Source: Bacteroidales bacterium (lineage in GTDB: Bacteria > Bacteroidota > Bacteroidia > Bacteroidales > UBA932). From it: a stretch of DNA of 37,131 bases. Below, piece by piece: positions 4,815 through 32,508 of the stretch. Made by a program: the position numbers and the translations under genes. The stretch's first letter is position 1. Every line of letters begins with the position of its first letter. Location: contig SUYV01000022.1 in NCBI GenBank assembly GCA_015060255.1, positions 1-37,131 on the forward strand, in the 5' to 3' direction. The notes below the pieces were generated by a model. That model was not told the origin of the DNA and did no database searches. It saw nothing but the letters and a program-made list of their open reading frames with translations.

Positions 4815-4830
4815 ACCACACTACACCACA
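4815..4830 (-). promoter_or_regulatory. putative operator: two ACCACA (TGTGGT) repeats, 10-bp period
   Basis: ACCACA occurs at 4815-4820 and 4825-4830 on the plus strand. On the minus strand the stretch TTTAGTGTGGTGT then TGTGGTGCAAA is almost identical to the site at 30154-30178. It begins two bases after the -7 element of the MFS promoter, where a bound protein would block RNA polymerase. The most likely ligand is the GntR-type regulator encoded at 25173-26204; this assignment is inferred. Confidence 0.65.
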
Positions 4831-4859
4831 CTAAATTTAAAAAACACATTTTCAGCACG

Positions 4860-6098
4860 ATGAAAGGCACTCACAAGTACTATAAATGGGAGGTTCTGGG
4901 ACTCCTCTGGATGGCATATCTGCTCAACCAGGCAGACCGTCAGGTGTTCAACACAGTGCTCCCTGCAATCCGTGACTCTCTCAACCTCACCGACACATCG
5001 GTAGGTCTCATCGCCACCGTATTCAACCTCTGCTACGCATTCATGGTGCCGCTCGGAGGAATGGCCGGCGACCGCCTCAGCCGCAAGTGGGTGACCACCA
5101 TAGCGATCCTCTTCTGGAGCGTTGCGACCATGTTCACAGGACTTGCAACAGGGGTTGTGATGCTCATACTCATGCGAAGTGTGGCCACCGGCGGCGGAGA
5201 AGCATTCTTCGGACCTGCCAACTATTCGCTCCTGGGCCAGTATCACACAGACACCAGAGCCCGCGCGATGTCCATCCACCAGACTTCATACTATGTGGGA
5301 GTGATCCTGGCAGGATGGCTTGCGGGATATATAGCTGACAAGCTCGGCTGGCAGTACTCGTTCATCATCTTCGGTGCAGCCGGCATCATCTGGGGCATTG
5401 TGATGGCCTTCCGCCTCAAGGACAAGGAGGACGCTGACGCTCCTCGCAATGACGAGAAGAAGCCAGGCATCTTCGACGGCTTCAAGACAGTGTTCACCAC
5501 ACCTACAGCCCTCGTTCTGACAATAGGATTCAGCGGATTCATCTTCGTTATCACAGGCTACATGACCTGGGTGCCTGCCTTCCTCCAGGAGGAGTTCGGC
5601 CAGACACAGGCCGCAGCAGGCTTCAACTCGATGTTCTGGACATACCTCGCAGCATTCGCCGGAGTGCTCCTCGCCGGCACGCTTTCCGACAAGTTCGCTG
5701 TCCGCGACCGCAAGGTAAGGATGGTCATCCAGGGCGTGGGACTCATCCTCGGAGCAGCATTCCTCTTCTTCGTGGGAAGCAACATGACCCTCTGGCTCAT
5801 ATACCTCTGCTTCGCCGGATGGGGATTCTTCAGAGCATTCTTCGATGCAAACATATATACAGTGCTCTATGACGTGACGCCGGCAAGGCTCCATGCCTCA
5901 TGCTCAAGCGCCCTCATCACCACAGGATTCGCCGTCGGAGCCCTCGCTCCGGTGATCCTCGGAGCCATGAAGGACAGCATGGGTAGCCTCTCGGCGACAT
6001 TCCCTGTCCTTGGAGCCGTATGGATCGTATGCGGAATCCTGATGCTCATTGTCAGCAGGACGCACTACCAGAAGGATTATGACAAAATAAACAGATAA
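4860..6098 (+). CDS. MFS sugar/sugar-acid transporter
   Basis: A 412-residue inner-membrane protein with about 12 hydrophobic segments. The loop between TM2 and TM3 carries the MFS signature GGMAGDRLSRKW. The N-terminus NQADRQVFNTVLPAI resembles transporters of the anion:cation symporter or hexuronate type, but the substrate cannot be read from the sequence. The start at 4860 follows a short leader after the promoter at 4782-4813; a longer frame from 4779 would begin upstream of the transcription start. It is the first gene of a long rightward operon, and its stop is two bases before the ATG of the isomerase gene. The position suggests that it imports the sugar handled by the three following enzymes. 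Confidence 0.9.
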   Translation: MKGTHKYYKWEVLGLLWMAYLLNQADRQVFNTVLPAIRDSLNLTDTSVGLIATVFNLCYAFMVPLGGMAGDRLSRKWVTTIAILFWSVATMFTGLATGVVMLILMRSVATGGGEAFFGPANYSLLGQYHTDTRARAMSIHQTSYYVGVILAGWLAGYIADKLGWQYSFIIFGAAGIIWGIVMAFRLKDKEDADAPRNDEKKPGIFDGFKTVFTTPTALVLTIGFSGFIFVITGYMTWVPAFLQEEFGQTQAAAGFNSMFWTYLAAFAGVLLAGTLSDKFAVRDRKVRMVIQGVGLILGAAFLFFVGSNMTLWLIYLCFAGWGFFRAFFDANIYTVLYDVTPARLHASCSSALITTGFAVGALAPVILGAMKDSMGSLSATFPVLGAVWIVCGILMLIVSRTHYQKDYDKINR

Positions 6099-6100
6099 TT

Positions 6101-7564
6101 ATGAAAGCCGAACTTAAAAACAGGAAGCCGAAAGCAGGAGTACTTCTGATAGCTTCCCCAAGGTTCAAGAACCTTTCCGGTCCTCAGAGAGGAACATACG
6201 GAGAGAGAAAGGAAAAAGCGGTCAAGGAAATCCTCGGAACAATGGACTTCCTTGACTTGGTGTATCCGGGCATTACCTATGAAAGAGAGGATGCACAGAA
6301 GGCCATGGACATGTTCTACGCTGAAAAAGTAGACTTCATCTATGCCGAGTTCCTATCATGGAGCGAGGACTTCGCATGGATCCGTTTCCTGCGCGACTGC
6401 CCTGATATCCCTATCATCTTCTGTAACGTGGCAAAGCCTAAGATGACTTTCGAGACCACTCTTGACGAGGATGACTTCGTTGATTATCTATGCGCCGGCA
6501 CGCTCGTAGGCTCGCTCGAGGCTTCCGGAAGCATCAGGAGGGTACCTCGCAAGAACGTGAAGACCGTCATGGGAACACGCGAGGAAGTTATCGAAAAGCT
6601 CAAGGTCTATGCAAACGCAGCAAAGACACGCGCAATCCTTCGCCACTCGAACGTAGGCCTCATGGCCAACATGAACGAGGCGATGTGGAGCACATATTTC
6701 GACAACTATGACCTTTTCACCAAGATAGGTCCGGAAATCCATTATCTCCCATATAGCGACTATGGCACCGAGATCGACAATCTCACCGACGAGGAGGTGA
6801 AGGCATACGCCGACGAGCTCACAGGCAAGTACAGGATGATGGAGGACGTGGAATATGACAAATTCATCGGATGCGTCAAGGCTACCCTCGGCATCAAGAA
6901 GCTCGCAGAAAAGAACGACATAGACTGCTATGTATATAATGACATAGACCAGGCAACATTCAGGACAGCAGGCTGCCGTGCCGGATTCTATCCTCAGTGG
7001 TTCAACGAGAACGTGAGCGTGCTCGTGCCTGAGGCCGACATAGGAGCAGGTCTTATCACATACATCCTCAAGCTGATGAGCGGCAGGAACGTGAACTTCG
7101 TGGAGCCGTTCCACATCGAGGACGAGTTCGGCACATTCGCCGGAGGACACGCTGGTCCTAACGACCACAACGACCCTGACTGGCAGGAGAACGTCATCAT
7201 CTCACGCGACGTACGCTTCGCAAAGACCAGCTGGAAGTATGCGGGAGCTCCATTCGCATGGTACCGCTTCAGCCCGGGAATGAAGACTGTCGCAGGCCTC
7301 TACGAGGAGGGTGGAAAGTACAAGCTCATCACCTTCATGGCAGAGAGTCTCTCGGAGAAGGACACTCCGCAGAGCGACAAGAAGCATCTCCTGGCAACAT
7401 ACAGCCACACTATATTCAGGCCGGTTGTCCCTGCAAAGGAGCTGTGGGAGCAGGTGCTCCGTATCGGAGCGACACAGCACTACGCCATCGTGGACGGCGA
7501 CTGGCGCAAGGAGCTCGAGGACTTCGCGGAGATCATGGGATTTGAATTTTACAGCATCAAATAG
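6101..7564 (+). CDS. L-arabinose/L-fucose isomerase-like sugar isomerase
   Basis: A 487-residue cytoplasmic protein of the AraA/FucI fold. The metal and catalytic residues of L-arabinose isomerase have clear counterparts: Glu311 (PEADIGAG), Glu335 (FVEPFHIEDE), His350 (GGHAG) and His460 (THYAIVDGD-like stretch, here QHYAIVDGD). The spacing closely follows the E. coli AraA set of two Glu and two His. An aldose-ketose isomerisation of an imported sugar is expected. Overall sequence is distant from classical AraA, and neither araB- nor fucK-type kinases are nearby, so the substrate may be different. It lies two bases after the transporter and about 30 bases before the cupin isomerase gene, supporting one catabolic unit. 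The ATG at 6101 is the only good start. Confidence 0.8.
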   Translation: MKAELKNRKPKAGVLLIASPRFKNLSGPQRGTYGERKEKAVKEILGTMDFLDLVYPGITYEREDAQKAMDMFYAEKVDFIYAEFLSWSEDFAWIRFLRDCPDIPIIFCNVAKPKMTFETTLDEDDFVDYLCAGTLVGSLEASGSIRRVPRKNVKTVMGTREEVIEKLKVYANAAKTRAILRHSNVGLMANMNEAMWSTYFDNYDLFTKIGPEIHYLPYSDYGTEIDNLTDEEVKAYADELTGKYRMMEDVEYDKFIGCVKATLGIKKLAEKNDIDCYVYNDIDQATFRTAGCRAGFYPQWFNENVSVLVPEADIGAGLITYILKLMSGRNVNFVEPFHIEDEFGTFAGGHAGPNDHNDPDWQENVIISRDVRFAKTSWKYAGAPFAWYRFSPGMKTVAGLYEEGGKYKLITFMAESLSEKDTPQSDKKHLLATYSHTIFRPVVPAKELWEQVLRIGATQHYAIVDGDWRKELEDFAEIMGFEFYSIK

Positions 7565-7593
7565 TAGTGTAATCATATAAATAAGTATCCATC

Positions 7594-9465
7594 ATGAGTT
7601 TCATGTACAACCCGTTTCCGTTTGACGATCCGAAACCGATCAACAGACCGAAACTTTCAGAAAAGACCATCAACTCCATAGTGGCAGGAGGAACTCCGAA
7701 TGTCGCAAAGAAATTTGTCGCGCAGATCGCCGACAGGGCAAAGGCAGAGGGTGTGATCGTAGGTATCGACGGATACACTACAGCCAACTGGAACCTCTTC
7801 GTCAACCTTGTGGCAAGAGAGTGTGTCATCAACGGCCTTGAGCTTGAAGTTGTCGATGCAGCCAAGGCTGTCCTCAAGTCAGGCAAGGAGATCGATGACA
7901 TGATCGACCCGCTCCTGATCTGGGACACAAAGATCGACCCTACCCTCCTCTATGGAAAGCTTTACCACGGAGGTTACATCGGTCTTTTCGACCAGACGAA
8001 GATGGAACAGTTCCGCAAGGACGTCCCTGCCATGAAGGCGCCAGGAAAGCTCGTCGTAGTAGCCGGATACGGCTGCATGGTCACAGAGCTCCGCGACCTC
8101 TATGACATCAAGTGCTGGTTTGACATCACTCCGATGAAGACCATGCTCCGCATCAGAGGCGGTGAATATTCAAACATCGGAAAAGAGCGTCCGGGTATCA
8201 TCAACCGCACCATCCGCCGCTGCTACTACTGCGACTTCGAGTGCGCAGTGCAGCTGAGAAAGGACCTCTGGAAAAACAATGTTCCAGACTATTTCTTCCT
8301 TGACAACGACCCTAAGAAACTCCAGATGATGCCTTTCGAGGCTTTCTCGGAGATCTGCGCAGAACTCGTGAAATATCCGTTCCGTGCAAAGCCATGCTAC
8401 CTCGAGGGAGTATGGGGCGGTTCATATATGAAGAAGCATCGTAACCTTCCGGAAGAGATGAGGAACGCCGCATGGGTGTTCGACTTCATCCCTATGGAGG
8501 TCAGCGTGCTTGTAGAGGCAGGCAAGGAGATGCTCGACATCAACTACTGCTCATTCGTTCACAAGGAAGGCATCAACCTCATGGGTGAGAAATGCGTGAA
8601 CAAGTACCAGGGATATTTCCCTATCCGCTTCAACTGGGACGATTCATACCACTCTACAGGAAACATGTCCATCCAGTGCCACTCGGACGGAAAGTTCAAC
8701 ATCGAGAACTACAACGAATTCGGCCGTCAGGACGAGAGTTACTACGTGGTGGTCACAGGCCATGAGGCAAAGACTTTCATCGGATTCCGAGACGATGCTG
8801 ACATCCCTCAGTTCTTCAAGGAGATCGAGGATGCCGATACAAAGCAGATACCATGTGACTACATGAAATATGTAAGCTATGAGGATTCCGTTCCCGGCCT
8901 CCAGGTGATGCTCCCTGCAGGAACAATCCACTCAAGCGGACGCAACCAGGTGATCCTTGAGATCGGCTCGCTCACTATCGGTTCATATACATATAAGATG
9001 TATGACTACCTCCGCCTCGACTTCGACGGCAAGCAGCGTCCGATCCACACTTACCTTGGAGAGAAGTGTGTGAACCAGAACAGAAGGGCTTCTGTCATCC
9101 ATGATCCGGACAGCCCTGACTACATAGTGCAGAAGCCTCGCCTCGACGCGAAAGGAGAAGGCTGGGAGGAGTACATCCTCGGTGAGAATCCTCAGATGTA
9201 CATCTCGCTCCGCCGCCTCGAGTTCGAGAAGATGTGCGAGCAGGACACAAAGAACGAGAAGTTCCATGTCCTTACTCTCGTAGACGGCGACAGAGCCCGC
9301 GTACGCAGCGTGGAGCATCCTGAGCGTTACTACGACATGGAGTTCATGGATATCGTCTGCGTTCCTGCAGATATGGGAAAATATGTTGTGGAAAACCTCG
9401 GCAAGGAGCCGATCCGCATCCATAAGACAACTCTTCGTGAAGGATTTGAAAATGATGAAAAATAG
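7594..9465 (+). CDS. class I mannose-6-phosphate isomerase-like cupin protein with long N-terminal domain
   Basis: A 623-residue cytoplasmic protein. The C-terminal half (about 330-560) resembles class I mannose-6-phosphate isomerases: SIQCHSDGKF matches the QxH zinc motif, Glu residues follow in NIENYNEFGRQDE, and MLPAGTIHSSG matches the PAGTIHA motif. The N-terminal half (about 30-280) looks like a nucleoside-kinase-like fold (VIVGIDGYTTANWN) but lacks a normal GxxGxGK Walker A loop, so ATP use is doubtful. A cysteine-containing RRCYYCDFEC segment lies near residue 210. It is far longer than the roughly 390 residues of E. coli ManA. Placed between the isomerase and the ROK kinase, it probably isomerises the phosphorylated sugar. 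Mannose-6-phosphate as substrate is a family-based guess. Confidence 0.75.
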   Translation: MSFMYNPFPFDDPKPINRPKLSEKTINSIVAGGTPNVAKKFVAQIADRAKAEGVIVGIDGYTTANWNLFVNLVARECVINGLELEVVDAAKAVLKSGKEIDDMIDPLLIWDTKIDPTLLYGKLYHGGYIGLFDQTKMEQFRKDVPAMKAPGKLVVVAGYGCMVTELRDLYDIKCWFDITPMKTMLRIRGGEYSNIGKERPGIINRTIRRCYYCDFECAVQLRKDLWKNNVPDYFFLDNDPKKLQMMPFEAFSEICAELVKYPFRAKPCYLEGVWGGSYMKKHRNLPEEMRNAAWVFDFIPMEVSVLVEAGKEMLDINYCSFVHKEGINLMGEKCVNKYQGYFPIRFNWDDSYHSTGNMSIQCHSDGKFNIENYNEFGRQDESYYVVVTGHEAKTFIGFRDDADIPQFFKEIEDADTKQIPCDYMKYVSYEDSVPGLQVMLPAGTIHSSGRNQVILEIGSLTIGSYTYKMYDYLRLDFDGKQRPIHTYLGEKCVNQNRRASVIHDPDSPDYIVQKPRLDAKGEGWEEYILGENPQMYISLRRLEFEKMCEQDTKNEKFHVLTLVDGDRARVRSVEHPERYYDMEFMDIVCVPADMGKYVVENLGKEPIRIHKTTLREGFENDEK

Positions 9466-10333
9466 CAATATGATTCTCCTTGACGTAGGAGGCACTTTCG
9501 TGAAGTCATCTCTGGGCATCGCCGGCAAAGGCGCTGTCGAGGGAACTTTTGCAAGCACTCCGATGTCGTCAGACGGTTCTGCAGAGGAGATCGCGGCATC
9601 GTTCCGCGCAGCAGTGGCAGGACAGATGGAAAGAGCAGCGGCAAACGGCGCACACATTGAGACGGTAAGCGTCGTAATGCCCGGCCCGTTCGACTACAAG
9701 AACGGCGGCGTATTCCTTATGAAGCACAAGTTTGCGGCAGTATACGGAAAGACCTTCCGCGAAATACTCGGCGAAGTCATCTCTCCTGAGACTCGTCTTG
9801 TCTTCGCACATGACGTGAACGGAGCACTCATGGGAGCGCTCATGCTGCGTCCTGAACTGAAGAAAGGAAACGTGGCCATGTCAACCCTCGGAACAGGTCT
9901 TGGATTCGCTTACGCAAAGGATGGCGTGATCCAGGAATCCTCTATGGGCTCGCCCTCTGTCGACCTCTGGGACACACCATATAACGGTGGCATTCTTGAA
10001 GATTTCGTGTCAAGAAGAGCAATCCTGCGCTTCTTTGCCGAGCAGGGCGGAGTCCTTGCCGAAGGAGAGGATGTGAAGGAGATTGCCGACAAGGCTCGCG
10101 AGGGTGACGAGAAGGCTCTCGAGGCATTCCGCTGCGCAGGCAGGCATTATGCCGCCGGAGCGAAGGATGTCGTGGAGAGGCTTCAGATAGGCCACCTTCT
10201 TTTTGCAGGCCAGATCGCGAAGTCGTTCGACCTCATGGAGAAGGAGATCGTGGAAGGACTCGGAGGTACTGTTGAAGTGTCTGTGGTGGATGACATCCAG
10301 GGCACCGTCCTCGTGGGAATCGCTTCACTGTAA
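9452..10333 (+). CDS. ROK-family sugar kinase (first of two)
   Basis: About 293 residues, cytoplasmic. The N-terminal phosphate-binding motif MILLDVGGTFVKSS, the central VSVVMPGPFD, the catalytic-type aspartate in FAHDVNGAL and the STLGTGLGFA loop mark a ROK kinase. The CxCGxxGC zinc motif of classical ROK glucokinases is absent. The start overlaps the end of the upstream gene by 14 bases: ATG at 9452, with GAAGGA about eight bases before it; ATGs at 9455 and 9470 are alternatives. The overlap suggests translational coupling with the cupin isomerase. It likely phosphorylates the sugar produced by, or feeding, the two isomerases. It differs clearly from the second ROK protein at 32518, so the two probably act on different sugars. 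Confidence 0.8.
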   Translation: MMKNSNMILLDVGGTFVKSSLGIAGKGAVEGTFASTPMSSDGSAEEIAASFRAAVAGQMERAAANGAHIETVSVVMPGPFDYKNGGVFLMKHKFAAVYGKTFREILGEVISPETRLVFAHDVNGALMGALMLRPELKKGNVAMSTLGTGLGFAYAKDGVIQESSMGSPSVDLWDTPYNGGILEDFVSRRAILRFFAEQGGVLAEGEDVKEIADKAREGDEKALEAFRCAGRHYAAGAKDVVERLQIGHLLFAGQIAKSFDLMEKEIVEGLGGTVEVSVVDDIQGTVLVGIASL

Positions 10334-10366
10334 ATTCATAGAAATAGATAACAAACTAACCTTATT

Positions 10367-13300
10367 ATGATGCTAACAAAACGTATGAACGGATTCAGAA
10401 GAGTGCTCGCGCTATGCTTCGTATCCGCTTGCGCCATGCTTTCAGCCTTCGCGCAAGACAGAAACGTCTCCGGTGTCATCCTGGATGAAACTGATACAGG
10501 AATCGCCGGTGCCTACGTTGTAGTAAAGGGAGAGACCCGTGGTGCGATGACCGACGACCAGGGTAGATTCAACATCAGCGTCTCTCCATCAGATGTACTC
10601 GTCGCATCATTCCTCGGATATCTTGACGAGGAAGTGAAAGTCGGCGACCAGACAAAGCTTACAATCAAGCTGGTTCCAGCTGCCAATGAACTCGAAGGAG
10701 TAGTCAAGGTGGCTTACGGTACCCAGAGAAAGGCTTCCGTTATCGGATCCATCAGTACCGTTGACATGGGAACCCTCGCTCAGTCACAAGGAAATCTCTC
10801 TACCAGCCTCGCCGGTAAGCTTGCCGGTGTGGTTGCAATCCAGAAGACCGGTGAGCCGGGTGCTTCAGCAGACTTCTGGATCCGTGGTGTGAGTACCTTC
10901 GGTGCCAACTCTACTCCGCTCATCCTCGTGGATGGTGTAGAGCGCAGCATGGACATGGTAGACACCGAGGACATCGCTTCCCTCTCTATCCTGAAGGATG
11001 CGTCTGCTACAGCGCTTTACGGTGTGCGCGGTGCGAACGGTATCGTGCTCATCACTACAAAGCGTGGTTCAGAGTCAAAGCCTCAGCTCACAATAAAGGT
11101 GGAGACAGGTATGACTTCTCCTGTAAAGCTTCCTGAAATGGCAAGCACAGGCGAGTTCATCGACTTCCTCAACAATATGTATGTAAACAGCGGCCAGGCA
11201 GCTATCTTCAATGATTTCCAGAAAGAGCAGTATCTTGCTACAGCCATGGGACTCGAGGGATGTGATCCTGATCTCTATCCGTCAGTAGACTGGGTGAACG
11301 AGACATTCAAGAACCAGGCTATGACTACAAGGGCCAATGTCGGAGTATCCGGAGGAACAAAGAGCGTCCGTTACTACGTCGGCGGTTCATACTACCTTGA
11401 AGACGGTATCCTCAACACTGCGGCAAACGACCGTTATGACGCCCAGATGAGCTACCAGAGGTTCAACTTCCGTACAAACGTGGACATCAACCTCACAAAG
11501 TCTACGGTTCTCGGCATGAACGTGTCTACACAGTTCACCGTAAAGAACTCTCCTGCAGCGGGTCTTGACGCTCTCCTCACTCAGACAATGACCATGACCC
11601 CTACTGCGATTCCGCTCAAGTATACAGACGGAACACTTGCTTCAATCAAGGGTACTCCAAACCCTTACAACCTCCTCAACGAGAGAGGTTATTCAAATAC
11701 CAGCAGTAACGTAGCGCAGTCTACGGTATCCCTCACTCAGGACTTCTCTGATTTCGTGACCGAGGGTCTTACCGCCCGCGTGGCTTTCTCATTCGATGCT
11801 ACCAATACCAACGTCCTGTCACGCAGCATCCTGCCGAAGACTTACAGGGCAATCGGAAGGGACGATGCAGGAAACATCCAGTATGAAGTGATCGATGATT
11901 ATGCCGGCTACATAACCCTCGATACATCACTTCCTAACACCAAGTCTCAGAACTCAAGGTACATCAATTTCGAGGGATCAATCAATTATGAACGTCAGTT
12001 CGCATACGCCCACAGGGTGAGTGCAATGGTGCTCTACAGTATGAGAAGCCTTCACCTCACCAACCCGGGAGCATATATCGCAGCTTTCCCATACAAGTCA
12101 ATGGGTGTTGCGGCACGTGCGACATATTCATACAAGGACCGCTACTTCTTCGAGTTCAACATGGGTTATAACGGATCTGAGAACTTCGCTCCGGGACACC
12201 GCTTCGGTTTCTTCCCTGCAGTAGCTGTCGGATACATGATCAGCAACGAGCCTTGGTGGGAGCCGGTATCTGACGTGATCAACCTCCTCAAGATCAAGGC
12301 TTCATATGGAAAGGTAGGTAATGATGAGATCGGTGGAAGCCGCCGTTTCGCATACAACACCACCATCAATACAAGCGCAACAGGTGCTGCATGGGGTACA
12401 GTTCCTAACTCTTCTGCTACCGGCTATCAGACCGTAGGCGGCATCACAACCGCAGAGATGGGTAACTCCGAGGTCGAGTGGGAGCAGGCTACAAAGAGCA
12501 ACGTCGGCATCGAGCTCGGTCTCTTCAACGACCTCACCATCCAGGCGGACCTTTTCCGCGACTACCGTGACGGCATCTTCCTCATGCGTCAGTCCACTCC
12601 TTCTGCAGTAGGTCTCCAGAAAGACCAGTATGTGAACATCGGAGAGATGCTCAACCGCGGTTTCGACATGTCTGTAGAGTATGACCATACATTCCTCAAC
12701 GGCTTCCGCGTTTCTGCAAGAGGAAACTTCACATTCAACCGCAACCGCCTCATCTATGACGACCAGCCTACACCGGTAGAGGAATACCTCAGCAACGTAG
12801 GATTCGCATACAACCAGAGAAAGGGTCTGATCTCATGCGGTCTCTTCGAGAGCCAGGAGGACATCGACAACTGGCCTGAGCAGACATTCGGTGACGTTCA
12901 GCCTGGTGACATCAAGTATAAGGACATCAACGGTGACGGTTATATAGACCAGTATGACAAGGTGGCCATCGGATATACCGCAATCCCTGAAATCAACTAC
13001 GGATTCGGCGTCAGCCTCGGCTACAAGGGCTTCGACCTCTCTGTATTCTTCAGCGGTGTTGCAAACGTTACACGCCAGATCGGAGGTTCCAACCTCTACG
13101 GTGCATCATCATCACCTCAGCTCACAGGACAGGTGTTCAGGGATGTGGCCCTCAATCACTGGACAGTAAGCAATCCAAATCCGAACGCACCATATCCAAG
13201 ACTCGGCACTACACGTTCGAACAACAACGTGCAGACTTCAGACTACTGGACTCGCGACATGAGCTTCCTCCGTATGAAGAACGCAGAGTTCGGATACACC

Positions 13301-13477
13301 TTCCCTAAGAAGTGGACAAAGAAGGCAGGAATCCAGGCCCTCCGCCTCTATGTGGCAGGAACCAACCTCCTCACCTTCTCCGAGTTCAAGCTCTGGGATC
13401 CTGAGCTTGAGACAGCAACAGGTGCAAGATATCCTATCACACGCAACGTAAGTCTCGGATTGAACATCAATTTCTAA
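10367..13477 (+). CDS. SusC/RagA-family TonB-dependent outer-membrane transporter
   Basis: A 1036-residue outer-membrane receptor. A signal peptide (about 1-30) is followed by a carboxypeptidase-D regulatory-like domain (about 32-110: NVSGVILDE...GAYVVVKG...DDQGRFNI). Next comes the plug with the typical SusC segment SILKDASATALYGVRGANG (about 205-225), then a beta barrel ending in aromatic Phe (LGLNINF). It imports large oligosaccharides with its SusD partner, powered by TonB-ExbBD. There is no extra N-terminal secretin/TonB-like signalling domain, so an ECF sigma/anti-sigma circuit is unlikely. It starts 33 bases after the ROK gene and is followed 10 bases later by susD. Its placement inside an operon headed by cytoplasmic catabolic genes is less common than susCD leading the operon. 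Confidence 0.95.
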   Translation: MMLTKRMNGFRRVLALCFVSACAMLSAFAQDRNVSGVILDETDTGIAGAYVVVKGETRGAMTDDQGRFNISVSPSDVLVASFLGYLDEEVKVGDQTKLTIKLVPAANELEGVVKVAYGTQRKASVIGSISTVDMGTLAQSQGNLSTSLAGKLAGVVAIQKTGEPGASADFWIRGVSTFGANSTPLILVDGVERSMDMVDTEDIASLSILKDASATALYGVRGANGIVLITTKRGSESKPQLTIKVETGMTSPVKLPEMASTGEFIDFLNNMYVNSGQAAIFNDFQKEQYLATAMGLEGCDPDLYPSVDWVNETFKNQAMTTRANVGVSGGTKSVRYYVGGSYYLEDGILNTAANDRYDAQMSYQRFNFRTNVDINLTKSTVLGMNVSTQFTVKNSPAAGLDALLTQTMTMTPTAIPLKYTDGTLASIKGTPNPYNLLNERGYSNTSSNVAQSTVSLTQDFSDFVTEGLTARVAFSFDATNTNVLSRSILPKTYRAIGRDDAGNIQYEVIDDYAGYITLDTSLPNTKSQNSRYINFEGSINYERQFAYAHRVSAMVLYSMRSLHLTNPGAYIAAFPYKSMGVAARATYSYKDRYFFEFNMGYNGSENFAPGHRFGFFPAVAVGYMISNEPWWEPVSDVINLLKIKASYGKVGNDEIGGSRRFAYNTTINTSATGAAWGTVPNSSATGYQTVGGITTAEMGNSEVEWEQATKSNVGIELGLFNDLTIQADLFRDYRDGIFLMRQSTPSAVGLQKDQYVNIGEMLNRGFDMSVEYDHTFLNGFRVSARGNFTFNRNRLIYDDQPTPVEEYLSNVGFAYNQRKGLISCGLFESQEDIDNWPEQTFGDVQPGDIKYKDINGDGYIDQYDKVAIGYTAIPEINYGFGVSLGYKGFDLSVFFSGVANVTRQIGGSNLYGASSSPQLTGQVFRDVALNHWTVSNPNPNAPYPRLGTTRSNNNVQTSDYWTRDMSFLRMKNAEFGYTFPKKWTKKAGIQALRLYVAGTNLLTFSEFKLWDPELETATGARYPITRNVSLGLNINF

Positions 13478-13487
13478 CAGACACATC

Positions 13488-20356: not shown

Positions 20357-20357
20357 T

Positions 20358-22562: not shown

Positions 22563-22684
22563 AATCCTCGCAGAAGAAATGTCACTTTTTTATACGAAGA
22601 TTCCAAATAGAGACTCAAAAACGGTCATTTTGGCCTGAAACTGCAATCCTTGCAGAAAAATGACTTGATTCTTCTGCAAGGATT
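22563..22684 (+). repeat. 122-bp direct repeat, left copy, containing two palindromes
   Basis: It aligns without gaps to 25024-25145, about 80% identical by hand count. It contains AATCCTCGCA (22563-22572) with a decayed partner TACGAAGATT (22593-22602). It also holds a perfect palindrome AATCCTTGCAGAA (22645-22657) with TTCTGCAAGGATT (22672-22684). The two copies bracket the RHS mosaic. The right half forms the apparent start of the RHS reading frame. Confidence 0.7.
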
Positions 22685-23889: not shown

Positions 23890-23900
23890 TTGTGGAGAAA

Positions 23901-23939
23901 AATCCTTGACTACACTGTAATTATACATGGTGAAGGATT
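23901..23939 (+). repeat. AATCCTT...AAGGATT palindrome between membrane protein and secreted protein genes
   Basis: AATCCTT (23901-23907) pairs with AAGGATT (23933-23939). It resembles the other AATCC-type palindromes at 22563, 22645, 24804, 25024 and 25106 and, like them, lies at a boundary between modules. Confidence 0.5.
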
Positions 23940-23965
23940 GTAAATCAATAATTTAAGACAGCATA

Positions 23966-25172: not shown

Positions 25173-26204
25173 TCAGAATGTGCCGCGGCGGGTCATGGTG
25201 AAGTCGCAGTGGACTTTCCAGGTCTTGCGGTTGAGGATCATCGTGGCGGCCGTATGGCCCATCTGCTTGAAGTCTGTCGAGATGGTCGTCAGACCGTTCA
25301 GGACCACTTCGTTGAGGTCGAACTCGTTGTATGATATGATGAACACATCCTTTCCCACTTCGAGGTTCTGCGCCTTGATCCTGCGCGCCAGCGCGGCAAG
25401 GCCGGAGTCGAGCTGCGAATTGATGACCAGATAGGCCTCTCCGGGAGCGACTGTCTCCGGAGCGGAATTCATGAACTCCACAGGAATGTCATATTCCATG
25501 CAGAATCTGTCGACACCCTTGCAGATCATAGGACCATAAAGGCTGGACGGAAGGGTTATGACCTTCAGGCATGAAGATGCCTTCAGCTTGTCCAGACCCT
25601 GCTTCAGACCGTCATATACATCATTCTCAAAGTCCTGATATACAGCGCCGTAATTGCCTGTGTAGCTCTGCAGCCAGTTGTCCACCATGATGAGCTTGCG
25701 GTTTGGAACGCGCGCTATCAGCTTGGTCGCAGCCGCCTGCGTCCTGTCGTCAAGCGGGAAGTGCGGGCTGATCACATAGAAGTCATATTTGTCAAGACTT
25801 GTGTCCAGGTAATATGTAAACAGCTCAAGATTCTGGTTGTGGGTGAGGATGGTGAGGTCCGCCTTGTCCCCCAGTTCTTCTGCAAGAGAGTTGAAAAGCA
25901 CCTCCTTGTAGATGCTCAGCTTGTCAAAAAGCACCAGCACGCGTGGCTTCGAGGCCTCGCCGGCCTCCGCCACATAGAATCCCTTGCCCTGCTGAGGCAC
26001 CAGCAGTCCCTTCTCGCGAAGGATTCCATAGGTCTTCTTGACTGTCTCTTTTGAAATGCCGAGCTGCGCGGCGAAGTCGTTCATAGAAGGAATCTGTTCG
26101 CCCGGCTTGAGCTTGCCGGAACGTATTGCGTCCTCGAACTGCTCTACGAGCTGCTTGTAGATCGGAGCCTTGCTCCCTGTCTCAAGAATGATCTGTATAG
26201 GCAT
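25173..26204 (-). CDS. GntR-type transcriptional regulator with LacI/PBP-like sensor domain
   Basis: A 343-residue cytoplasmic regulator. Residues about 8-75 are a GntR winged helix (APIYKQLVEQFEDAIRSG, LKPGEQIPSMNDFAAQLGIS, TVKKTYGILREKGLL). Residues about 85-335 resemble periplasmic-binding-protein/LacI sugar-sensing domains (VLVLFDKLSIYKEVLFNSL, DVFIISYNEFDLNEVVLNGLTTI). Such proteins usually repress sugar-use genes until an inducer sugar or sugar phosphate binds. The start is 11 bases after the GH20 stop, so the two are one operon whose promoter carries a version of the TGTGGT motif. It is the only transcription factor in the locus and therefore the best candidate for the shared operator at 4815, 30159 and 32476. 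Its 3' end abuts the RHS mosaic. Confidence 0.9.
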   Translation of the reverse strand: MPIQIILETGSKAPIYKQLVEQFEDAIRSGKLKPGEQIPSMNDFAAQLGISKETVKKTYGILREKGLLVPQQGKGFYVAEAGEASKPRVLVLFDKLSIYKEVLFNSLAEELGDKADLTILTHNQNLELFTYYLDTSLDKYDFYVISPHFPLDDRTQAAATKLIARVPNRKLIMVDNWLQSYTGNYGAVYQDFENDVYDGLKQGLDKLKASSCLKVITLPSSLYGPMICKGVDRFCMEYDIPVEFMNSAPETVAPGEAYLVINSQLDSGLAALARRIKAQNLEVGKDVFIISYNEFDLNEVVLNGLTTISTDFKQMGHTAATMILNRKTWKVHCDFTMTRRGTF

Positions 26205-26215: not shown

Positions 26216-27778
26216 TTATAGCAATTTGAATGTAGGGTCGTCGAAACGCAGTCTTCCTGTCTGCGCCCTGAGGCTTTCATTGAAGAGGTCAAAGGTGTTG
26301 TAACCCATGTTGCGGAAGATGGTTATCAAAGTCAGGCAGCGCTCGCGGAAGTGGAAGAACTCGCGCTTTTCCTGAGGTGTCCAGCCGATCTCGGCGATTG
26401 CGAAAGTCCTCGGATAGAGCATGTATTCAGCGTGAGCGGCGTATGGAATGAGTTCGCACCATAGATTGCCCTGAAGGCCGAGGATATGGTGGTGAAACTC
26501 AGGGGCTATGCCCTCGAGAGGGTCATATTTATATACATGGCGAAGCGACTGCATATGGCCCACCGCCTTCGGTTCCTTCCTTATGAGGTCCTGGTAATAA
26601 TCCAGATATACATAACTGTTCGGAGACATTATCACGTCGTGACCCTCCGCAGAGGCCTTGACTCCTCCCGGGGTGCCTCTCCAGGACATCACCACCGCCT
26701 GCTCAGGAAGCCCGGTCTCGAGGATTTCGTCCCATCCTATGACGGTCTTTCCCCTCTCGCGGAGGAACTGCTCGATATGGCGCACCAGGTAGCCCTGAAG
26801 CTCATTCTTATGCTTCATTCCCTCTTCCTGCATCCTCTTCTGGCAGTTGACGCATACTTCCCAGTCCTTCTTCACCGCCTCGTCGCCTCCGATGTGGATA
26901 TATTTATATGGGAAAAGTTCTATGACCTCCTCCAGAACAGTCTCGAGGAACTCGAAAGTACCGTCATTACCCACGCAGAGGTCCCATGAGAAAGGCCTTG
27001 GCCTTCCGTCCGGTCCCACGCATGCAATCTCCGGATATGCCCTGTTGACCTCCATGCTATGTCCCGGCATCTCGATCTCGGGAATGATGTCTATGTGACG
27101 CTCTGCAGCATATGCGACAATCTCGCGTATGTCGTCCTTTGTATAGAATCCTCCATATGCATTAGGATCCTCGGCATTTGTGAACGGATAGCCGAGGCCT
27201 TCCCACTCGTGGTAGGTCTCGCCCACCCTCCATGCCACATGGTCCGTAAGGTTGGGATATGCATCGATCTGGAGGCGCCAGCCGGCAGCATCAGTCAGAT
27301 GCAGATGCATGACATTCATCCTCAGCAGCGCCAGAGCGTCAATCTGCTTCTTGACGAACTCCTTTCCCTTGAAGCTGCGGGACTCGTCAAGCATGATACC
27401 TCTGTGCTGGAAACGCGGATAGTCGAATATCGTGCAATGCTGGATGTCACGGTCGATCAGGCGCATCATCTCAAGGCTTTGCTTTGCCCTGAAAGCGCCT
27501 TCCTCGGTCATGGCATATATCTTCACACCCTTCTTGCCGACTATAAGTTCATATGCCTCTTCCTGCGCGAAAGCAGGAAGACCGGCAACTTTGGCAGCAA
27601 ATTTCGCGTCACTTAGGTATACCTTGACATCCGAACCATCCCCCTTCAGGTTATAGAAACCGTCGGAAACCGAATGTTCCACCGGCTCAGGAATAATCTT
27701 ATCCGGACTTGAATATGCTGATAATGAGGTTATTGACACCATCAGAGCGATGAATGCCAATAAATTTTTCCGTATCAT
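26216..27778 (-). CDS. GH20 beta-N-acetylhexosaminidase, secreted
   Basis: A 520-residue protein with a signal peptide (about 1-24). A short N-terminal GH20b-like domain (about 28-120) is followed by the GH20 barrel (about 125-470). The family signature YIHIGGDEA places the catalytic Asp299-Glu300 pair. Substrate-pocket segments are RGIMLDESRSF, MHLHLTDAAGWRLQ, IIPEIEMPGH and VIGWDEIL. It removes terminal beta-GlcNAc or beta-GalNAc residues by substrate-assisted catalysis, most likely in the periplasm. There is no lipobox. It heads the two-gene operon with the GntR regulator. It is shorter than many Bacteroides GH20 enzymes because it lacks C-terminal carbohydrate-binding modules. Confidence 0.93.
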   Translation of the reverse strand: MIRKNLLAFIALMVSITSLSAYSSPDKIIPEPVEHSVSDGFYNLKGDGSDVKVYLSDAKFAAKVAGLPAFAQEEAYELIVGKKGVKIYAMTEEGAFRAKQSLEMMRLIDRDIQHCTIFDYPRFQHRGIMLDESRSFKGKEFVKKQIDALALLRMNVMHLHLTDAAGWRLQIDAYPNLTDHVAWRVGETYHEWEGLGYPFTNAEDPNAYGGFYTKDDIREIVAYAAERHIDIIPEIEMPGHSMEVNRAYPEIACVGPDGRPRPFSWDLCVGNDGTFEFLETVLEEVIELFPYKYIHIGGDEAVKKDWEVCVNCQKRMQEEGMKHKNELQGYLVRHIEQFLRERGKTVIGWDEILETGLPEQAVVMSWRGTPGGVKASAEGHDVIMSPNSYVYLDYYQDLIRKEPKAVGHMQSLRHVYKYDPLEGIAPEFHHHILGLQGNLWCELIPYAAHAEYMLYPRTFAIAEIGWTPQEKREFFHFRERCLTLITIFRNMGYNTFDLFNESLRAQTGRLRFDDPTFKLL

Positions 27779-27802
27779 TTATTATGCAGTCTTTAATCCA
27801 CA

Positions 27803-27831
27803 CAAAGATAGGTAAAAAAGACCACACCACA
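27803..27831 (-). promoter_or_regulatory. promoter and TGTGGT-type operator of the GH20-gntR operon
   Basis: On the minus strand the -7 element is TATCTTTG (27810-27803), about 25 bases before the ATG. ACCACACCACA at 27821-27831 (TGTGGTGTGGT on the coding strand) covers the spacer and -33 region. Here the two hexamers are spaced by 5 bp rather than the 10 bp seen at the other sites. Autoregulation by the GntR protein is inferred. Confidence 0.55.
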
Positions 27832-27845
27832 GCTCACTCACGCAT

Positions 27846-27877
27846 AAAAAAGCAGCGGATCCCGAAGGAACCGCTGC
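27846..27877 (-). terminator. intrinsic terminator of the BACON lipoprotein gene
   Basis: On the minus strand GCAGCGG (27877-27871) and CCGCTGC (27858-27852) form a GC-rich 7-bp stem with a 12-base loop, followed directly by TTTTTT (27851-27846). It lies 35 bases after the stop at 27913 and insulates the gene from the GH20 operon. Confidence 0.85.
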
Positions 27878-27912
27878 AGAATCCATATAATCAAGTATCA
27901 GACGTTTCTGAA

Positions 27913-30108
27913 TTACTCGAGTGTGAGTTTAATGAGTGACAGACCGCAGTTCTCACCTAAAGCAGCGATATAAACAGCATCCTCGGTAACACGTACATCA
28001 CAATCACAAAGAGTCTTAGCTGCCGGATTACCTGCAAAATCAAAATCATTGTCAGCATTTGAGAGTGCGAACTCTGCAACAAGACGCTCAGAATAATTAG
28101 TAAGAGCATCCTTGAGCGACTCCATTGTGCTTCCATCACCCTCGATTACCTGAAGACGAGGTTTAGAGTTTCCGTATTTCAAAGAAGTCCACGCGATAAA
28201 TTTCTTTCCGCCAAACTCAAAGAACTTATAACCAAATGTCTTTGCAAGCTCAGGGAATACAGCTTCCTCTGTTGCAGCACCCGCAACAGAACATCCCTTC
28301 ATAAGGTGAACTCCGATATCAGAAGTGGTTGACATAAGGCAATAGTCCTGCTTTGTATTATCCGAAACAGGATACCATGATATTTCACTGATACACTCGT
28401 CATCTTCATTAGTGATACGATATGGATCAATCCAAGTCTGAAGAGCACCATTATTGATAGGAATAACAGCCTCAAGCGGACTATCCTGATTAGATCTCAA
28501 CCAGATGATACCGCTCTGCCAAGTACCCGAAACAGAGAACTTATCGCCGAATCTTCTTGCTGAATTGAGAGAATATACCTTTACAGGAGCATTGTCAATT
28601 CCATTTACATATGCATAGAAATTGAGAGGCTCGTTAGCCAATGCGAGATTACCGACAAGAAGAACGTCTTTTCCATTATTGACAGATGAATCTGTATTCT
28701 TGACAATTCTGACGCAAGATGTAGGATATGTACCGCCACTTATTCCATCAACAGGAAGAGTTGAAATCTCCTGAGTCTTGATGTTTATCTTGTAAATGCC
28801 GGGAGTTCCAGTACCAAAAGGAATGTAGATATACTCATCATCCATTGCAAGATTAGTATCACCGCCATACCAAGATCCCTTCAGATTGTCGGCAACACCA
28901 TCAAACCAGTTTGATTCAGGCACAGAATAATAACCCCATACGCGTGTGAACAGAGATTTTGCAACGCCTGGCTGAGTGATAGTCACAGTCATGAGAACCT
29001 CCTCAGTACCCTTACGCACGAAATCTACCTTTGCAGAGCGCTCCTCGCCTTCATTCTTCTCAGCTGCGAAAGTGAGCTCGAATGCCGACTTGGTCACTAC
29101 CTGAGTGAGCCATGCTGCCTCAGCAGGGATAACCACCTCGAAAGGAACGTTTGAAACACCTTTTACAACTACCTGACCACCATCTCCTGGGATCACATAG
29201 TCAACAGCCTCAACGCTGTAGCTCTCAGCTGCGAACACCACCTTCCTGATTGAAGTCTTGCCCTCGCCGTTGTCAGCGAAAACGAGCATCTGAGCACCGG
29301 CAGCGATGTTTGAAACCTTGATCACCTCAGCCTCAACGACAGCCTCGCAAGCTACTGCAAGAACATCAACAGTTGTAGTTGCGTTGGCACCCTTTACTGT
29401 ATAAGGGATCTCGACTGAAGTCTGATCCTTTGCAAGACCTATGCTTTCAGCAATCTCGAGAGCGAACTTCTCGGCGAGCGGGAGATCGAATGAATCACCA
29501 GCCTCACCGTTCTCACCGACAAAAGTGAATGTAACTGTTCCTTCTTCCTCGTTGACAACAACAGACTTGAAGATAGACACACCTGTAAGAGCACCTACGA
29601 ACTGAGGCTCTCCACCTGGATATGTTACATAGAGGTTGCCGTCCACGCTTGTGAATACAGGGGCCTCCTCATATACTGCAGGGCCCTGCTCACCGTTGAT
29701 GAACCAATAGAGGACACCGTCAACTTCCTTTACGGCAACGGTAGGAGTCTTGCCGTCAACACCTGCTGCGCCGGTGTCACCCTTGTCTCCCTGGTCTCCA
29801 GTCTCACCCTTGTCACCCTTCTCACCGTTCTTTATAACGATTGTCGTCTCGTCTGAGAAAGTGATGGTGTAGCCTGTACCGTCCTCGAGAGCAACTACAG
29901 ACTCGATATACTTGCCTGTCTTGAGAGCCTCTGCAAGAGTCTTCATGGCTGCAACATTGAGTTCAAGTGTAGCAAGATCCTCCTCTACCTTTGTGAGGCG
30001 GTCGTCGAGATTGTCGATCTGCTCCTTGATGGCAGTGTCGTCATACGCCTCCGGAGTACATGCGCAGATCGCAAGACCCATCATAAGCGCGAAAAATATC
30101 TTCTTCAT
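27913..30108 (-). CDS. surface lipoprotein: coiled coil, collagen-like stalk, BACON domain, propeller-like C-terminus
   Basis: A 731-residue lipoprotein (lipobox AICAC, Cys17). A heptad-rich coiled coil (about 23-64, EQIDNLDDRLTKVEEDLATLELNV in part) leads into a DUF4988-like region. A short collagen-like Gly-X-Y run follows at about 95-119 (GEKGDKGETGDQGDKG). Beta domains come next, with a BACON-type domain at about 300-383 (AAWLTQV, RSAKVDFVRKGTEE) and a C-terminal domain from about 386 (LFTRVWGYY) related to the lipoprotein at 15479. BACON and collagen-like stalks suit a surface glycan-binding protein that reaches away from the membrane. No catalytic motif was seen. It has its own promoter with the shared operator and its own terminator, so its level is set independently of susCD. 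Confidence 0.8.
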   Translation of the reverse strand: MKKIFFALMMGLAICACTPEAYDDTAIKEQIDNLDDRLTKVEEDLATLELNVAAMKTLAEALKTGKYIESVVALEDGTGYTITFSDETTIVIKNGEKGDKGETGDQGDKGDTGAAGVDGKTPTVAVKEVDGVLYWFINGEQGPAVYEEAPVFTSVDGNLYVTYPGGEPQFVGALTGVSIFKSVVVNEEEGTVTFTFVGENGEAGDSFDLPLAEKFALEIAESIGLAKDQTSVEIPYTVKGANATTTVDVLAVACEAVVEAEVIKVSNIAAGAQMLVFADNGEGKTSIRKVVFAAESYSVEAVDYVIPGDGGQVVVKGVSNVPFEVVIPAEAAWLTQVVTKSAFELTFAAEKNEGEERSAKVDFVRKGTEEVLMTVTITQPGVAKSLFTRVWGYYSVPESNWFDGVADNLKGSWYGGDTNLAMDDEYIYIPFGTGTPGIYKINIKTQEISTLPVDGISGGTYPTSCVRIVKNTDSSVNNGKDVLLVGNLALANEPLNFYAYVNGIDNAPVKVYSLNSARRFGDKFSVSGTWQSGIIWLRSNQDSPLEAVIPINNGALQTWIDPYRITNEDDECISEISWYPVSDNTKQDYCLMSTTSDIGVHLMKGCSVAGAATEEAVFPELAKTFGYKFFEFGGKKFIAWTSLKYGNSKPRLQVIEGDGSTMESLKDALTNYSERLVAEFALSNADNDFDFAGNPAAKTLCDCDVRVTEDAVYIAALGENCGLSLIKLTLE

Positions 30109-30158: not shown

Positions 30159-30195
30159 TGTGGTGTGCTGTGGTGCAAATCACGCGGCAAATATA
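30159..30195 (-). promoter_or_regulatory. promoter and TGTGGT operator of the BACON lipoprotein gene
   Basis: On the minus strand the -7 element is TATATTTG (30195-30188); no clear -33 element was found. TGTGGT occurs on the plus strand at 30159-30164 and 30169-30174, 10 bp apart, within the predicted 5' leader. The surrounding bases (TTTAGTGTGGTGT and TGTGGTGCAAA) match the MFS operator almost exactly. Confidence 0.65.
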
Positions 30196-30255
30196 GCAAT
30201 TAAAACAATACTCGCTCCGTTTTTCGCAATAATTTTATTTCAAAAGCATTGATTT

Positions 30256-32442
30256 CTAAAGACCATATCTGGAAATGATCTCACGGGAAAGGGTGACAGG
30301 ACATACCGGTTCATTATACACGACAGGGTCGTCTGAAACAGCCCATGACTTCTCAAACTCTGTAAGGCGCTCAAAAAATGCCGTCTGGTCATATTCGCGG
30401 CCGTCCTCTATGCATGAAAGAATTTCAGCAATGTACATTTCCCAACGAGGAGCGCAATATGACTTCACCAGTCCGCTCCACAGTCTTGTCGCATAGTCTA
30501 GCAGAGTCTTAGAATCTCCCCATACGGTAATGATGGTCCGTGCATTGCAACGATAATACGCTGACTCCTCCGGGGTCCTGCCCCAGGCTGAAGCATCGTC
30601 CAGCCAGCGCTTAAGACTGAGTTGAGGGTCACACGCCGCCAAAGCATCAAGATCATCAAGAAGCTGCAGCATCTGATCGGCAACCGAGCGGGCAGCCTCC
30701 AGATCCGAAGCCCTGTAGGCTGCTGTAAACTGATCGCGAAGCACGGCAAAGTGGTTACCCAACGCCTGAGTTCCGAGATTTACCACATCGGAATAATAGG
30801 TATCACGGTCGGAAGACACCTCAAGCAGTTCCTTCCAAGCCCTGATCAAAGTAGCATTGTCATATCGCGTATTATGTATCGAAGTCCAGCTCCAATATCC
30901 TTCCATGCAAGGACGTGCACAGGTCAGAGGAGTCTGGCTTGAGAATGAACCTGCTATATATATGCTGTCCGTCAATGTCTTCCAGACATTCTCGGCATGC
31001 GGATCGACCCGGCCTGTCCTGCGCGAAGCCAAAGTCCTTACCCAGTCCTCATCTGAAATCCCTGAAGACCACGCCTTGTCCAAGACGAATTCATACATGA
31101 ACTGGTTGATGCCGAAGCCCTCAAGTGTCGACCCTATTCCACACATGTTGTCTCCACCATTCACAATAGCATCATCGATGCGCTCTGAAGCCTGATGGAA
31201 GTTACCCGCAAGCCTGACATTGCCTCCGAAATTGCCAAGATAGCAAAGGATATAAGGCTGTCCGTAGAACTTGTCGGTCAATGTCCATACAGGAGTATGC
31301 TCAAGATAATAATCCAGAATCACCACCTTACCTTGAGGGACGGCCTGGAGATAGGCCTTGACATTCTCCGGAGTCCAATGCTCACGATCGTAATAGAACA
31401 TCCATCCCATCTGGAGCCACACAGCTTCCGGATCTACAGAAGCCATTGATTCATAAGCACATCGCGATATCTCAGCCAATGTCTCCGGATCCCATGAAGG
31501 GGCATCCACCTCATTGAAAAGATCCACTCCATAAATATGATCCGTTCCGAACATCTTCTCCTGCTCGGTCATGTACTCGCGTTGTATCTGCGCATAAAGC
31601 GGGTCCATAGGCGCAAGGAAATGACATAGATTTTCTGACTGAAAGCCGCCCCAGGACGGTATATCGGTAATCTGCGCTTCGGGATATATCTCCTTCAGCT
31701 GCTCAGGCACATGTCCACCGAAGGCCTGAAGCACCGGACGCATGCCCAGGCCACGCTCGCGCCTGAGGATCCGCTTCTGGAGCTTCGCCTGCGAGTCGAT
31801 CCAAGTCTGTGGAAGCGGACCGTCATAATGGTCGATGTTGCACATGCGATGCCATGCCAGATGCGCCGGGCCGGTAAAATATGAACGTATCTCGTCATCA
31901 GAAAGACCATGCCTGCGCCATACCTTCTGCCAGACCGCCTCCTGACCTGTATTTGCCAGCGGCATATTGATTCCGTTCAGGGCCATCCAGTCTATGAACC
32001 TCTCCCAGTCCTCCCATTTCCACCAAGGCATCGTGTAGCCGAAAGTACAATAGTTCAGGAAGAATCTGTCCTTGACCTTCGCCTCAACGCGCACTGGAGT
32101 CTCCACAGCAGGCATCTGAGCAGGATACTGCACCGGCTCGAAAGCATACCATGACACGGTCACTCCGCAATAGTTCTTCAGGTAATGATTAAGACCGGCA
32201 GCCATGGAAATTGCATCATTTCCCTCGATGACAAGTTTAGATCCTTCAGAATGAATACAGAATATATCGATGGTGGTGTCATCGGTCTGTCTGAAATCTA
32301 TCTTGCCGGCATATAACGGGACTATCCTTCGGGCCAGTCCCCTCGCCTGGCGCTCTGCCTCTGTTGCTGAGAAGAAGCCAAGACATAAAGCGAAAAGAAC
32401 CGCAAACGACGCAATGACAGCAAATAATCTCCTGTATTTCAT
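30256..32442 (-). CDS. GH89 alpha-N-acetylglucosaminidase (NAGLU-like), secreted
   Basis: About 728 residues with a signal peptide (MKYRRLFAVIASFAVLFALCLG). The GH89 layout is clear: a small N-terminal domain (LVIEGNDAISMAAGLNHYLK), the barrel with FFLNYCTFGYTMPWWKWEDW, the GMRPVLQAFGGHVP strand, and an all-helical C-terminal domain. Catalytic glutamates are visible in IYGVDLFNEVDAPSW (Glu311 from the chosen start) and GIGSTLEGFG (Glu441). Family members release terminal alpha-GlcNAc, as in heparan sulfate or alpha-1,4-GlcNAc-capped mucins. The start is taken at 32442; 32454 is possible, and the longer frame to 32496 would overlap the operator. It is monocistronic, divergent from the ROK-GH2 operon, and shares one operator with it. 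Confidence 0.93.
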   Translation of the reverse strand: MKYRRLFAVIASFAVLFALCLGFFSATEAERQARGLARRIVPLYAGKIDFRQTDDTTIDIFCIHSEGSKLVIEGNDAISMAAGLNHYLKNYCGVTVSWYAFEPVQYPAQMPAVETPVRVEAKVKDRFFLNYCTFGYTMPWWKWEDWERFIDWMALNGINMPLANTGQEAVWQKVWRRHGLSDDEIRSYFTGPAHLAWHRMCNIDHYDGPLPQTWIDSQAKLQKRILRRERGLGMRPVLQAFGGHVPEQLKEIYPEAQITDIPSWGGFQSENLCHFLAPMDPLYAQIQREYMTEQEKMFGTDHIYGVDLFNEVDAPSWDPETLAEISRCAYESMASVDPEAVWLQMGWMFYYDREHWTPENVKAYLQAVPQGKVVILDYYLEHTPVWTLTDKFYGQPYILCYLGNFGGNVRLAGNFHQASERIDDAIVNGGDNMCGIGSTLEGFGINQFMYEFVLDKAWSSGISDEDWVRTLASRRTGRVDPHAENVWKTLTDSIYIAGSFSSQTPLTCARPCMEGYWSWTSIHNTRYDNATLIRAWKELLEVSSDRDTYYSDVVNLGTQALGNHFAVLRDQFTAAYRASDLEAARSVADQMLQLLDDLDALAACDPQLSLKRWLDDASAWGRTPEESAYYRCNARTIITVWGDSKTLLDYATRLWSGLVKSYCAPRWEMYIAEILSCIEDGREYDQTAFFERLTEFEKSWAVSDDPVVYNEPVCPVTLSREIISRYGL

Positions 32443-32462
32443 AGAAACAAACATAAAGTTCT

Positions 32463-32508
32463 TATCTTTGTAAACTGTGGTACACTGTGGTAACAACTTG
32501 CAAATATA
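32463..32508. promoter_or_regulatory. divergent promoters for GH89 and ROK-GH2 with a shared TGTGGT operator
   Basis: Rightward, a -7 element TATCTTTG is at 32463-32470; leftward, TATATTTG reads on the minus strand at 32508-32501. Between them, TGTGGT is at 32476-32481 and 32486-32491, again with a 10-bp period. A single bound protein complex could therefore control both transcripts. Confidence 0.65.

Follow-up and report, generated by a model that had tools for sequence, protein, structure and literature searches.

GntR-family regulators that read direct repeats have been described in a few cases: such repeats are listed for FarR, NagQ and NanR and for the MocR-type regulators GabR, TauR and PdxR (PMC4494728), and in characterised MocR regulators they lie two or three turns apart (PMC5320631). 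In Bacteroides thetaiotaomicron, the GntR regulons FucR (BT1272) and ManR (BT2103) have been predicted (PMC3878776). Here we analyse a 37,131-nucleotide stretch with a glycan-digesting gene cluster from a gut Bacteroidales bacterium of the UBA932 lineage (contig SUYV01000022.1, the window), in which pairs of TGTGGT hexamers stand head to tail at an exact 10-bp step beside TAnnTTTG promoter boxes. These TGTGGT-N4-TGTGGT elements are, judging from sequence comparisons, very probably the operators of a GntR-LacI hybrid repressor encoded at 25173-26204.

The regulator belongs to the GntR family, having an N-terminal GntR winged helix (PF00392, 50.7 bits against a cut-off of 27), and this is followed by a LacI-type sugar sensor domain, as in the AraR subfamily. 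NanR of Escherichia coli has a FadR-type C-terminal domain. It is a GntR protein of the FadR subfamily with a (GGTATA)3 operator, and it resembles the present system as a GntR repressor of sugar catabolism whose tandem direct repeats follow the RNA-polymerase site (PMC8012715). The 32-residue N-terminal extension of NanR is needed for its cooperation (PMC8012715), whereas here just 15 residues precede the GntR domain; NanR is also among the exceptions of FadR/HutC type, with another sensor (PMC4494728), whereas here a LacI-like sensor goes with two units at a 10-bp step. The tandem direct repeat downstream of a promoter is thus present, but the FadR-type C-terminal domain and the long N-terminal extension are not, and by analogy the regulator may work like NanR without being a member of the NanR type. 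AraR of Bacillus subtilis also joins a GntR winged helix to a LacI-like sensor, but its operators are two-fold symmetric, whereas the present sites have no dyad.

NagQ (TGGTATT) and FarR (TGTATTAWTT) are likewise GntR proteins on direct repeats (PMC4494728), with a HutC-type sensor and another half-site and step. ManR and FucR are, like the present protein, GntR regulators of monosaccharide and polysaccharide utilisation locus (PUL) genes in Bacteroidales, and ManR is also predicted to control a SusCD operon (PMC3878776). The excerpts of PMC4494728 and PMC5320631 describe no precedent in which a GntR-LacI hybrid has a one-turn step, and no 10-bp direct-repeat operator of such hybrids in Bacteroidota appears among open-licence titles and abstract beginnings, a comparison that lies outside the FucR and ManR logos, motifs and sequences, so that a prior sighting is possible. 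Within that scope we rate the protein architecture and the idea of a direct-repeat operator as known, and the combination and its geometry as new.

A TGTGGT direct repeat at the promoters of the locus

The window has three exact copies of the pattern, at the places named by the initial annotation (sites 1-3; Table 1); 0.01 are expected, and none of 100 dinucleotide shuffles reaches three. In the home assembly (2,048,183 bases in 63 contigs, 84.7% complete) there is no exact copy outside the window; three further matches, each with one mismatch, are found elsewhere in the assembly on its other contigs, and for the reversed control pattern there are four at up to one mismatch. Sites 1 and 2, said to agree over about 25 bases, are identical at 23 of 26. 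The operator is a head-to-tail repeat of the 10-bp unit A[G/C]TGTGGT[G/A][T/C], with no dyad.

The count of three was too low, as a degenerate site had been overlooked and there are at least four (site 4; Table 1). Site 4 is a two-mismatch match, and the two-mismatch pattern was dropped as stand-alone evidence because it is too weak, its five window matches against 2.83 expected being within chance. The TGTGGTGTGGT core of site 4, followed by the promoter block TTTTTTACCTATCTTTG, is however retained in 13 of the 15 GH20 promoters that were chosen, from 43 loci with a GH20 match, as close orthologues; the exceptions are L041, where it is altered, and L042, which has no core-plus-block. This conservation is partly common descent, the regulators of these relatives being 71-87% identical. 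The constancy of the TTTTTTACCTATCTTTG block (window 27803-27836, minus strand) exceeds what a promoter box alone would need.

A TAnnTTTG box, which we take to be the -7 element of Bacteroidota promoters, stands beside each of sites 1-3 as the initial annotation had it, the distance of 2-14 bases given there being corrected to 1, 13, 5 and 9 bases. The box itself is near chance in the window (17 against 11.8 expected), and 4 of the 17 adjoin exact sites. Among 54 distinct sites of the strict operator pattern (STGTGGTRYRSTGTGGT), taken from the window and 78 regulator loci, 49 are preceded, on one or the other side, by a TAnnTTTG box that begins 8-26 bp ahead of the operator, against 0 of 54 in control windows 100 bp further out, so that repression at the start site is the likely action; by analogy, such a placement agrees with obstruction of the start site, as for NanR (PMC8012715). 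The boxes number 51, with 46 facing the ACCACA strand and 5 the TGTGGT strand, and the operator therefore has a preferred polarity.

The 78 loci surround relatives of the regulator on genome contigs and come from the 80 best of 169 matches; most named records are metagenome-assembled and many of the genomes are incomplete. An exact site is present in 49 of them: 15/18 where the regulators share at least 70% identity, 30/44 at 55-69% and 3/9 at 48-54%. Counting unique contexts in loci L031-L130, the 4-base spacing occurs 54 times, inverted and everted arrangements once each, and every other direct spacing at most twice apart from the overlapping form TGTGGTGTGGT. This form, with a 5-bp, half-turn step and 27 contexts, is the sole other frequent spacing.

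The logo of 53 unique sites reads A-[G/C]-TGTGGT-[G/A]-[T/C] twice at a 10-bp step. These sites were selected by two direct exact TGTGGT words, which fixes those 12 columns by choice, and the independent evidence lies in the flanking columns, the N4 columns and the spacing counts. The direct offset of 10 scores 0.72 (weight 20.3), and a hidden palindrome was rejected, as none of the dyad centres scored across the logo stands out (at most 0.37). Since a two-fold operator is thus not found, we file the regulator as AraR-like in architecture with another operator geometry, not as AraR. The reversed pattern gives 11 hits in 11 of the 78 loci, a control contaminated by the overlap of TGGTGT-N4-TGGTGT with true sites shifted by two bases, and for the geometry we therefore turn to the spacing histogram and to shuffled sequences. 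Sites normally have two units, and 1 of 55 distinct sites has more; four consecutive 10-bp units occur between an MFS gene and a GH127 gene (GH, glycoside hydrolase family) in locus L049 (18982-19017).

Co-occurrence of the repeat and the regulator

In a sample of 300 genomes of the genus, the strict operator is found in 57 (107 sites) and the regulator (E<=1e-60) in 76. Both are present in 53 genomes, the operator alone in 4, the regulator alone in 23 and neither in 220 (Fisher p 1.3e-35, an optimistic value since the genomes are related), and the reversed strict pattern occurs in 2 of the 300. On contigs that also carry the regulator lie 78 of the 107 sites, 76 of them within 30 kb of it and 13 within 400 bp upstream of its gene. 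At the level of the family (299 genomes), a pattern with the spacer RYRS is found in 7 of the 20 regulator-bearing genomes and in a single one (G058) of the 279 that lack the regulator.

Several observations weigh against reading the repeat as the operator of this protein. The loose exact pattern is unspecific, being present in 10 of the 20 family genomes with the regulator and in 50 of the 279 without. Exact sites grow sparse in distant orthologs, with 1 of 7 loci at 40-47% identity; among the most distant loci, L100 has an exact site near the regulator start and L097, L098 and L103 a one-mismatch form there, which in L101 lies on the other side. No strict operator was found in 23 of the 76 regulator-bearing genomes of the genus. 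Thirteen of these were examined, and 11 have a match with 0-2 mismatches in the fetched stretch, including an exact one outside the strict spacer (G251) and one with TGTGAT twice, the same change in both units (G248); two-mismatch matches may be chance, and the match in G450 sits inside the regulator gene. Conversely, no regulator was detected in 4 of the 57 operator-bearing genomes. Three were examined (G473 was left out): the G313 site lies before the same MFS module, that of G402 stands beside a GH89 gene on a 3.2-kb contig, and the site in G058 is probably chance because no homologue of a window gene lies within the 17 kb fetched. Site 4 lies 5' of its promoter box, unlike the other sites, and it is not obvious how a dimer with two-fold symmetry would match a direct repeat.

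Recognition helix and the wider GntR-LacI subclass

The bases of the unit tend to vary with the recognition helix of the regulator. In 26 aligned relatives, down to 42% identity, S51, E53-T54, K56-K57 and Y59 are kept in all, and the single E53D relative, outside this alignment (L122), has TGTGAT in both units. Across 27 hand-picked regulators (20 of 40 distant ones, chosen for a clear tandem, plus seven nearer ones; L193, L204 and L216 are among those omitted), more similar helix domains go with more similar units (Mantel r 0.45, p 0.0002), as do more similar sensor domains (r 0.42, p 0.0002). The partial correlation is 0.21 for the helix given the sensor (p 0.008) and 0.10 for the sensor given the helix (p 0.09); much of the trend could be common descent, and the remainder favours the helix.

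Residues 52 and 53 were compared with the unit in about 500 bp on either side of 131 regulators, with bases 4 and 7 unused in scoring; 38 regulators have a tandem (those of L029 and L215 read in a shifted register, uncorrected), and for many of the others the operator lies further off or was not found in these flanks. Of 72 units beside regulators with Lys or Arg at position 52, 63 have G4, and all 4 units of the Met52 regulators, two relatives (L282 and L284, with 145 of 341 residues identical), have T4. With the helix [K/R]52-E53-...-KK, GG stands at bases 6-7 of at least one unit in 17 of 19 regulators and of both units in 13; of the other 19 regulators, GG is in both units in two, those with Met52-Glu53. 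These residue-base links rest on few changes, one E53D and two Met52 regulators. In AraR, Arg41 of the recognition helix contacts operator base G5 directly (PMC4218819, PMC4494728), and Lys52 aligns with it, given an equal-length match of residues 12-79 to 21-88 and the residue count.

An order-level sample of 40 loci of distant regulators with the same architecture (27-36% identity) was scored for a 9-base repeat with at least 8 matches, comparing offsets 8 to 30. Offset 10 is found in 28 of 80 flanks, against 5.1 in shuffles (largest of 20: 9) and 1-10 at other offsets. Among LacI-family controls (23 loci used of 30 fetched), 6 of 46 flanks have it, against 2.95 in shuffles (at most 6) and 0-9 at other offsets; among HutC-type controls (16 loci used of 21), 5 of 32 flanks do, against 1.45 in shuffles (at most 8) and 0-5 at other offsets. 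The distant units vary (ACTGGTAGGT, ACTGTGCTGA, ACTGTCCTGT, ACTGTTCTGT, ACTGTTATGT and others) and align as approximately ACTGTnnTGT; about half of the 40 loci have no readable tandem. The one-turn direct repeat thus looks common in the GntR-LacI subclass, and the view that direct repeats are unusual for GntR proteins holds for the family as a whole, with the precedents above, but apparently not for these hybrids. It seems fairly probable that Bacteroidales GntR-LacI repressors share an operator grammar of at least two head-to-tail 10-bp units of approximately the form ACTGTnnTGT at a step of one helical turn, with letters set by residues 52-53 and 56-57 of the recognition helix, of which the TGTGGT repeat would be one word, and that they bind DNA head to tail and not as a two-fold dimer.

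Predicted target genes and proposed mode of action

The features of the locus are collected in Table 1. That one operator serves the MFS-susCD, BACON-GH20-gntR, GH89 and ROK-GH2 units, as had been proposed, is supported by the kept sites and by the statistical tie to the regulator. The claim that the regulon lacks a hybrid two-component system (HTCS) or extracytoplasmic function (ECF) sigma system is also supported, since a Pfam scan of 24 open reading frames (ORFs) of the window found no histidine kinase, AraC or sigma domain. The divergent NAGPA-GH127 genes have a TAATTTTG box at 4765-4772 (minus strand), with site 1 about 42 bp upstream of it, and could be a fifth controlled unit.

Table 1. 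Operator sites, promoter boxes, regulator and predicted target units in the window
Feature	Position	Strand	Remarks
Operator site 1	4815..4830	-	Units AGTGTGGTGT / AGTGTGGTGC; separates NAGPA-GH127 from the MFS-susCD operon
Operator site 2	30159..30174	+	Precedes BACON-GH20-gntR (transcribed on -)
Operator site 3	32476..32491	+	Common to divergent GH89 (-) and ROK-GH2 (+) units
Operator site 4, degenerate (TGAGCTGTGGTGTGGT)	27821..27836	-	5' of the GH20-gntR promoter box
TAnnTTTG box (TACTTTTG), MFS operon	4806..4813	+	1 base before site 1
TAnnTTTG box (TATATTTG), BACON operon	30188..30195	-	13 bases from site 2
TAnnTTTG box (TATCTTTG), ROK-GH2	32463..32470	+	5 bases from site 3
TAnnTTTG box (TATATTTG), GH89	32501..32508	-	9 bases from site 3
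TAnnTTTG box (TATCTTTG), before GH20	27803..27810	-	Paired with site 4
Regulator, AraR-like architecture	25173..26204	-	GntR winged helix (residues 16-78) and LacI-type sensor domain
Predicted target operon: MFS transporter, isomerase-like, mannose-6-phosphate-isomerase-like, ROK-like, SusC, SusD, probably continuing	4860..15473	+	Extent predicted from gene order
Predicted target operon: DUF4988/BACON protein, GH20, then gntR	26216..30108	-	Predicted extent
Predicted target: GH89 alpha-N-acetylglucosaminidase	30256..32454	-	
Predicted target operon: ROK kinase, GH2, ThiL-like protein	32518..36998	+	Predicted extent

Two proteins after the MFS transporter (6101-9465, plus strand) resemble sugar isomerases, with weak, below-cut-off matches to L-arabinose/L-fucose isomerase and a match to mannose-6-phosphate isomerase (1qwr, E 7.5e-5). 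As for the class of inducer, GH20 and GH89 point to glycans of N-acetylglucosamine, and the two isomerase-like genes to another monosaccharide. The module of MFS transporter, isomerase-like and ROK-like genes recurs beside distant regulators (L050, L064, L081, L092, L106, L108). Beside gntR, the ORFs at 22650-24445 (plus strand) look like a lineage-specific insertion, because they are present in at most 1 of the 78 regulator loci and the first has an RHS repeat-associated core domain. The ROK-GH2 unit ends with a thiamine-phosphate-kinase-like protein (35976-36998, plus strand; TIGR01379, 120.5 bits, below the cut-off of 184), an odd partner for glycan genes.

In the mechanism that we propose, a single GntR winged helix would dock on each unit by means of its recognition helix SKETVKKTY, and the two winged helices, belonging either to one dimer or, as with NanR, to two different dimers, would lie on the same face of the DNA one turn apart. 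The bound repressor would cover the start site and block RNA polymerase from starting. The LacI-like domain would bind a sugar released by the locus, probably a monosaccharide consumed by the MFS-isomerase-kinase operon, and the sugar-bound protein would leave the DNA, so that the transporter, SusCD and the hydrolases are switched on jointly. The regulator would also control its own level, its gene being downstream of sites 2 and 4.

That the GntR protein binds these sites to activate, not to repress, is improbable: site 4 does lie upstream of its TAnnTTTG box, and site 1 upstream of the NAGPA box, as activator sites might, but the great majority of distinct sites are just downstream of a TAnnTTTG box, the position of a NanR-type block (PMC8012715); activation is thus less likely, though at site 4 it may apply. 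We consider it very improbable that the repeat serves a different DNA-binding protein, such as a response regulator or an AraC/HTCS protein, as its operator, with the GntR regulator a mere neighbour. In B. thetaiotaomicron, HTCS and SusR-like regulators are predicted to use directly repeated sites of conserved spacing, but the HTCS tandem sites average 21 bp apart and the SusR repeats 67 or 77 bp, not 10 (PMC3878776). No protein of the HTCS, AraC or response-regulator type is found among the 24 scanned ORFs, and a neighbour's role also fits poorly with unit letters that tend to track the GntR recognition helix and with distant GntR-LacI regulators elsewhere that carry their own 10-bp repeats.

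Most sites fall within the predicted first transcribed bases, as a repeated 5' leader RNA signal would, but the element occurs in either orientation relative to the box and site 3 stands between two divergent promoter boxes; together with a chance expectation of 0.01 sites, this leaves an RNA signal or a chance repeat in place of a DNA operator with a negligible likelihood. The reading of the repeat as the operator of the GntR-LacI repressor raises a structural question, namely how an asymmetric site of head-to-tail units is read by a protein whose LacI-type sensor is probably dimeric.

Control of PULs in Bacteroidota is usually attributed to hybrid two-component systems, SusR-like regulators and pairs of ECF sigma and anti-sigma factors. 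In the present case an entire PUL seems to be run by a one-component repressor whose operator is short and searchable. Should the subclass as a whole obey the one-turn tandem rule, the operators and regulons of many unstudied regulators would be readable from sequence, and the operator code would offer simple parts for gene control in gut bacteria.

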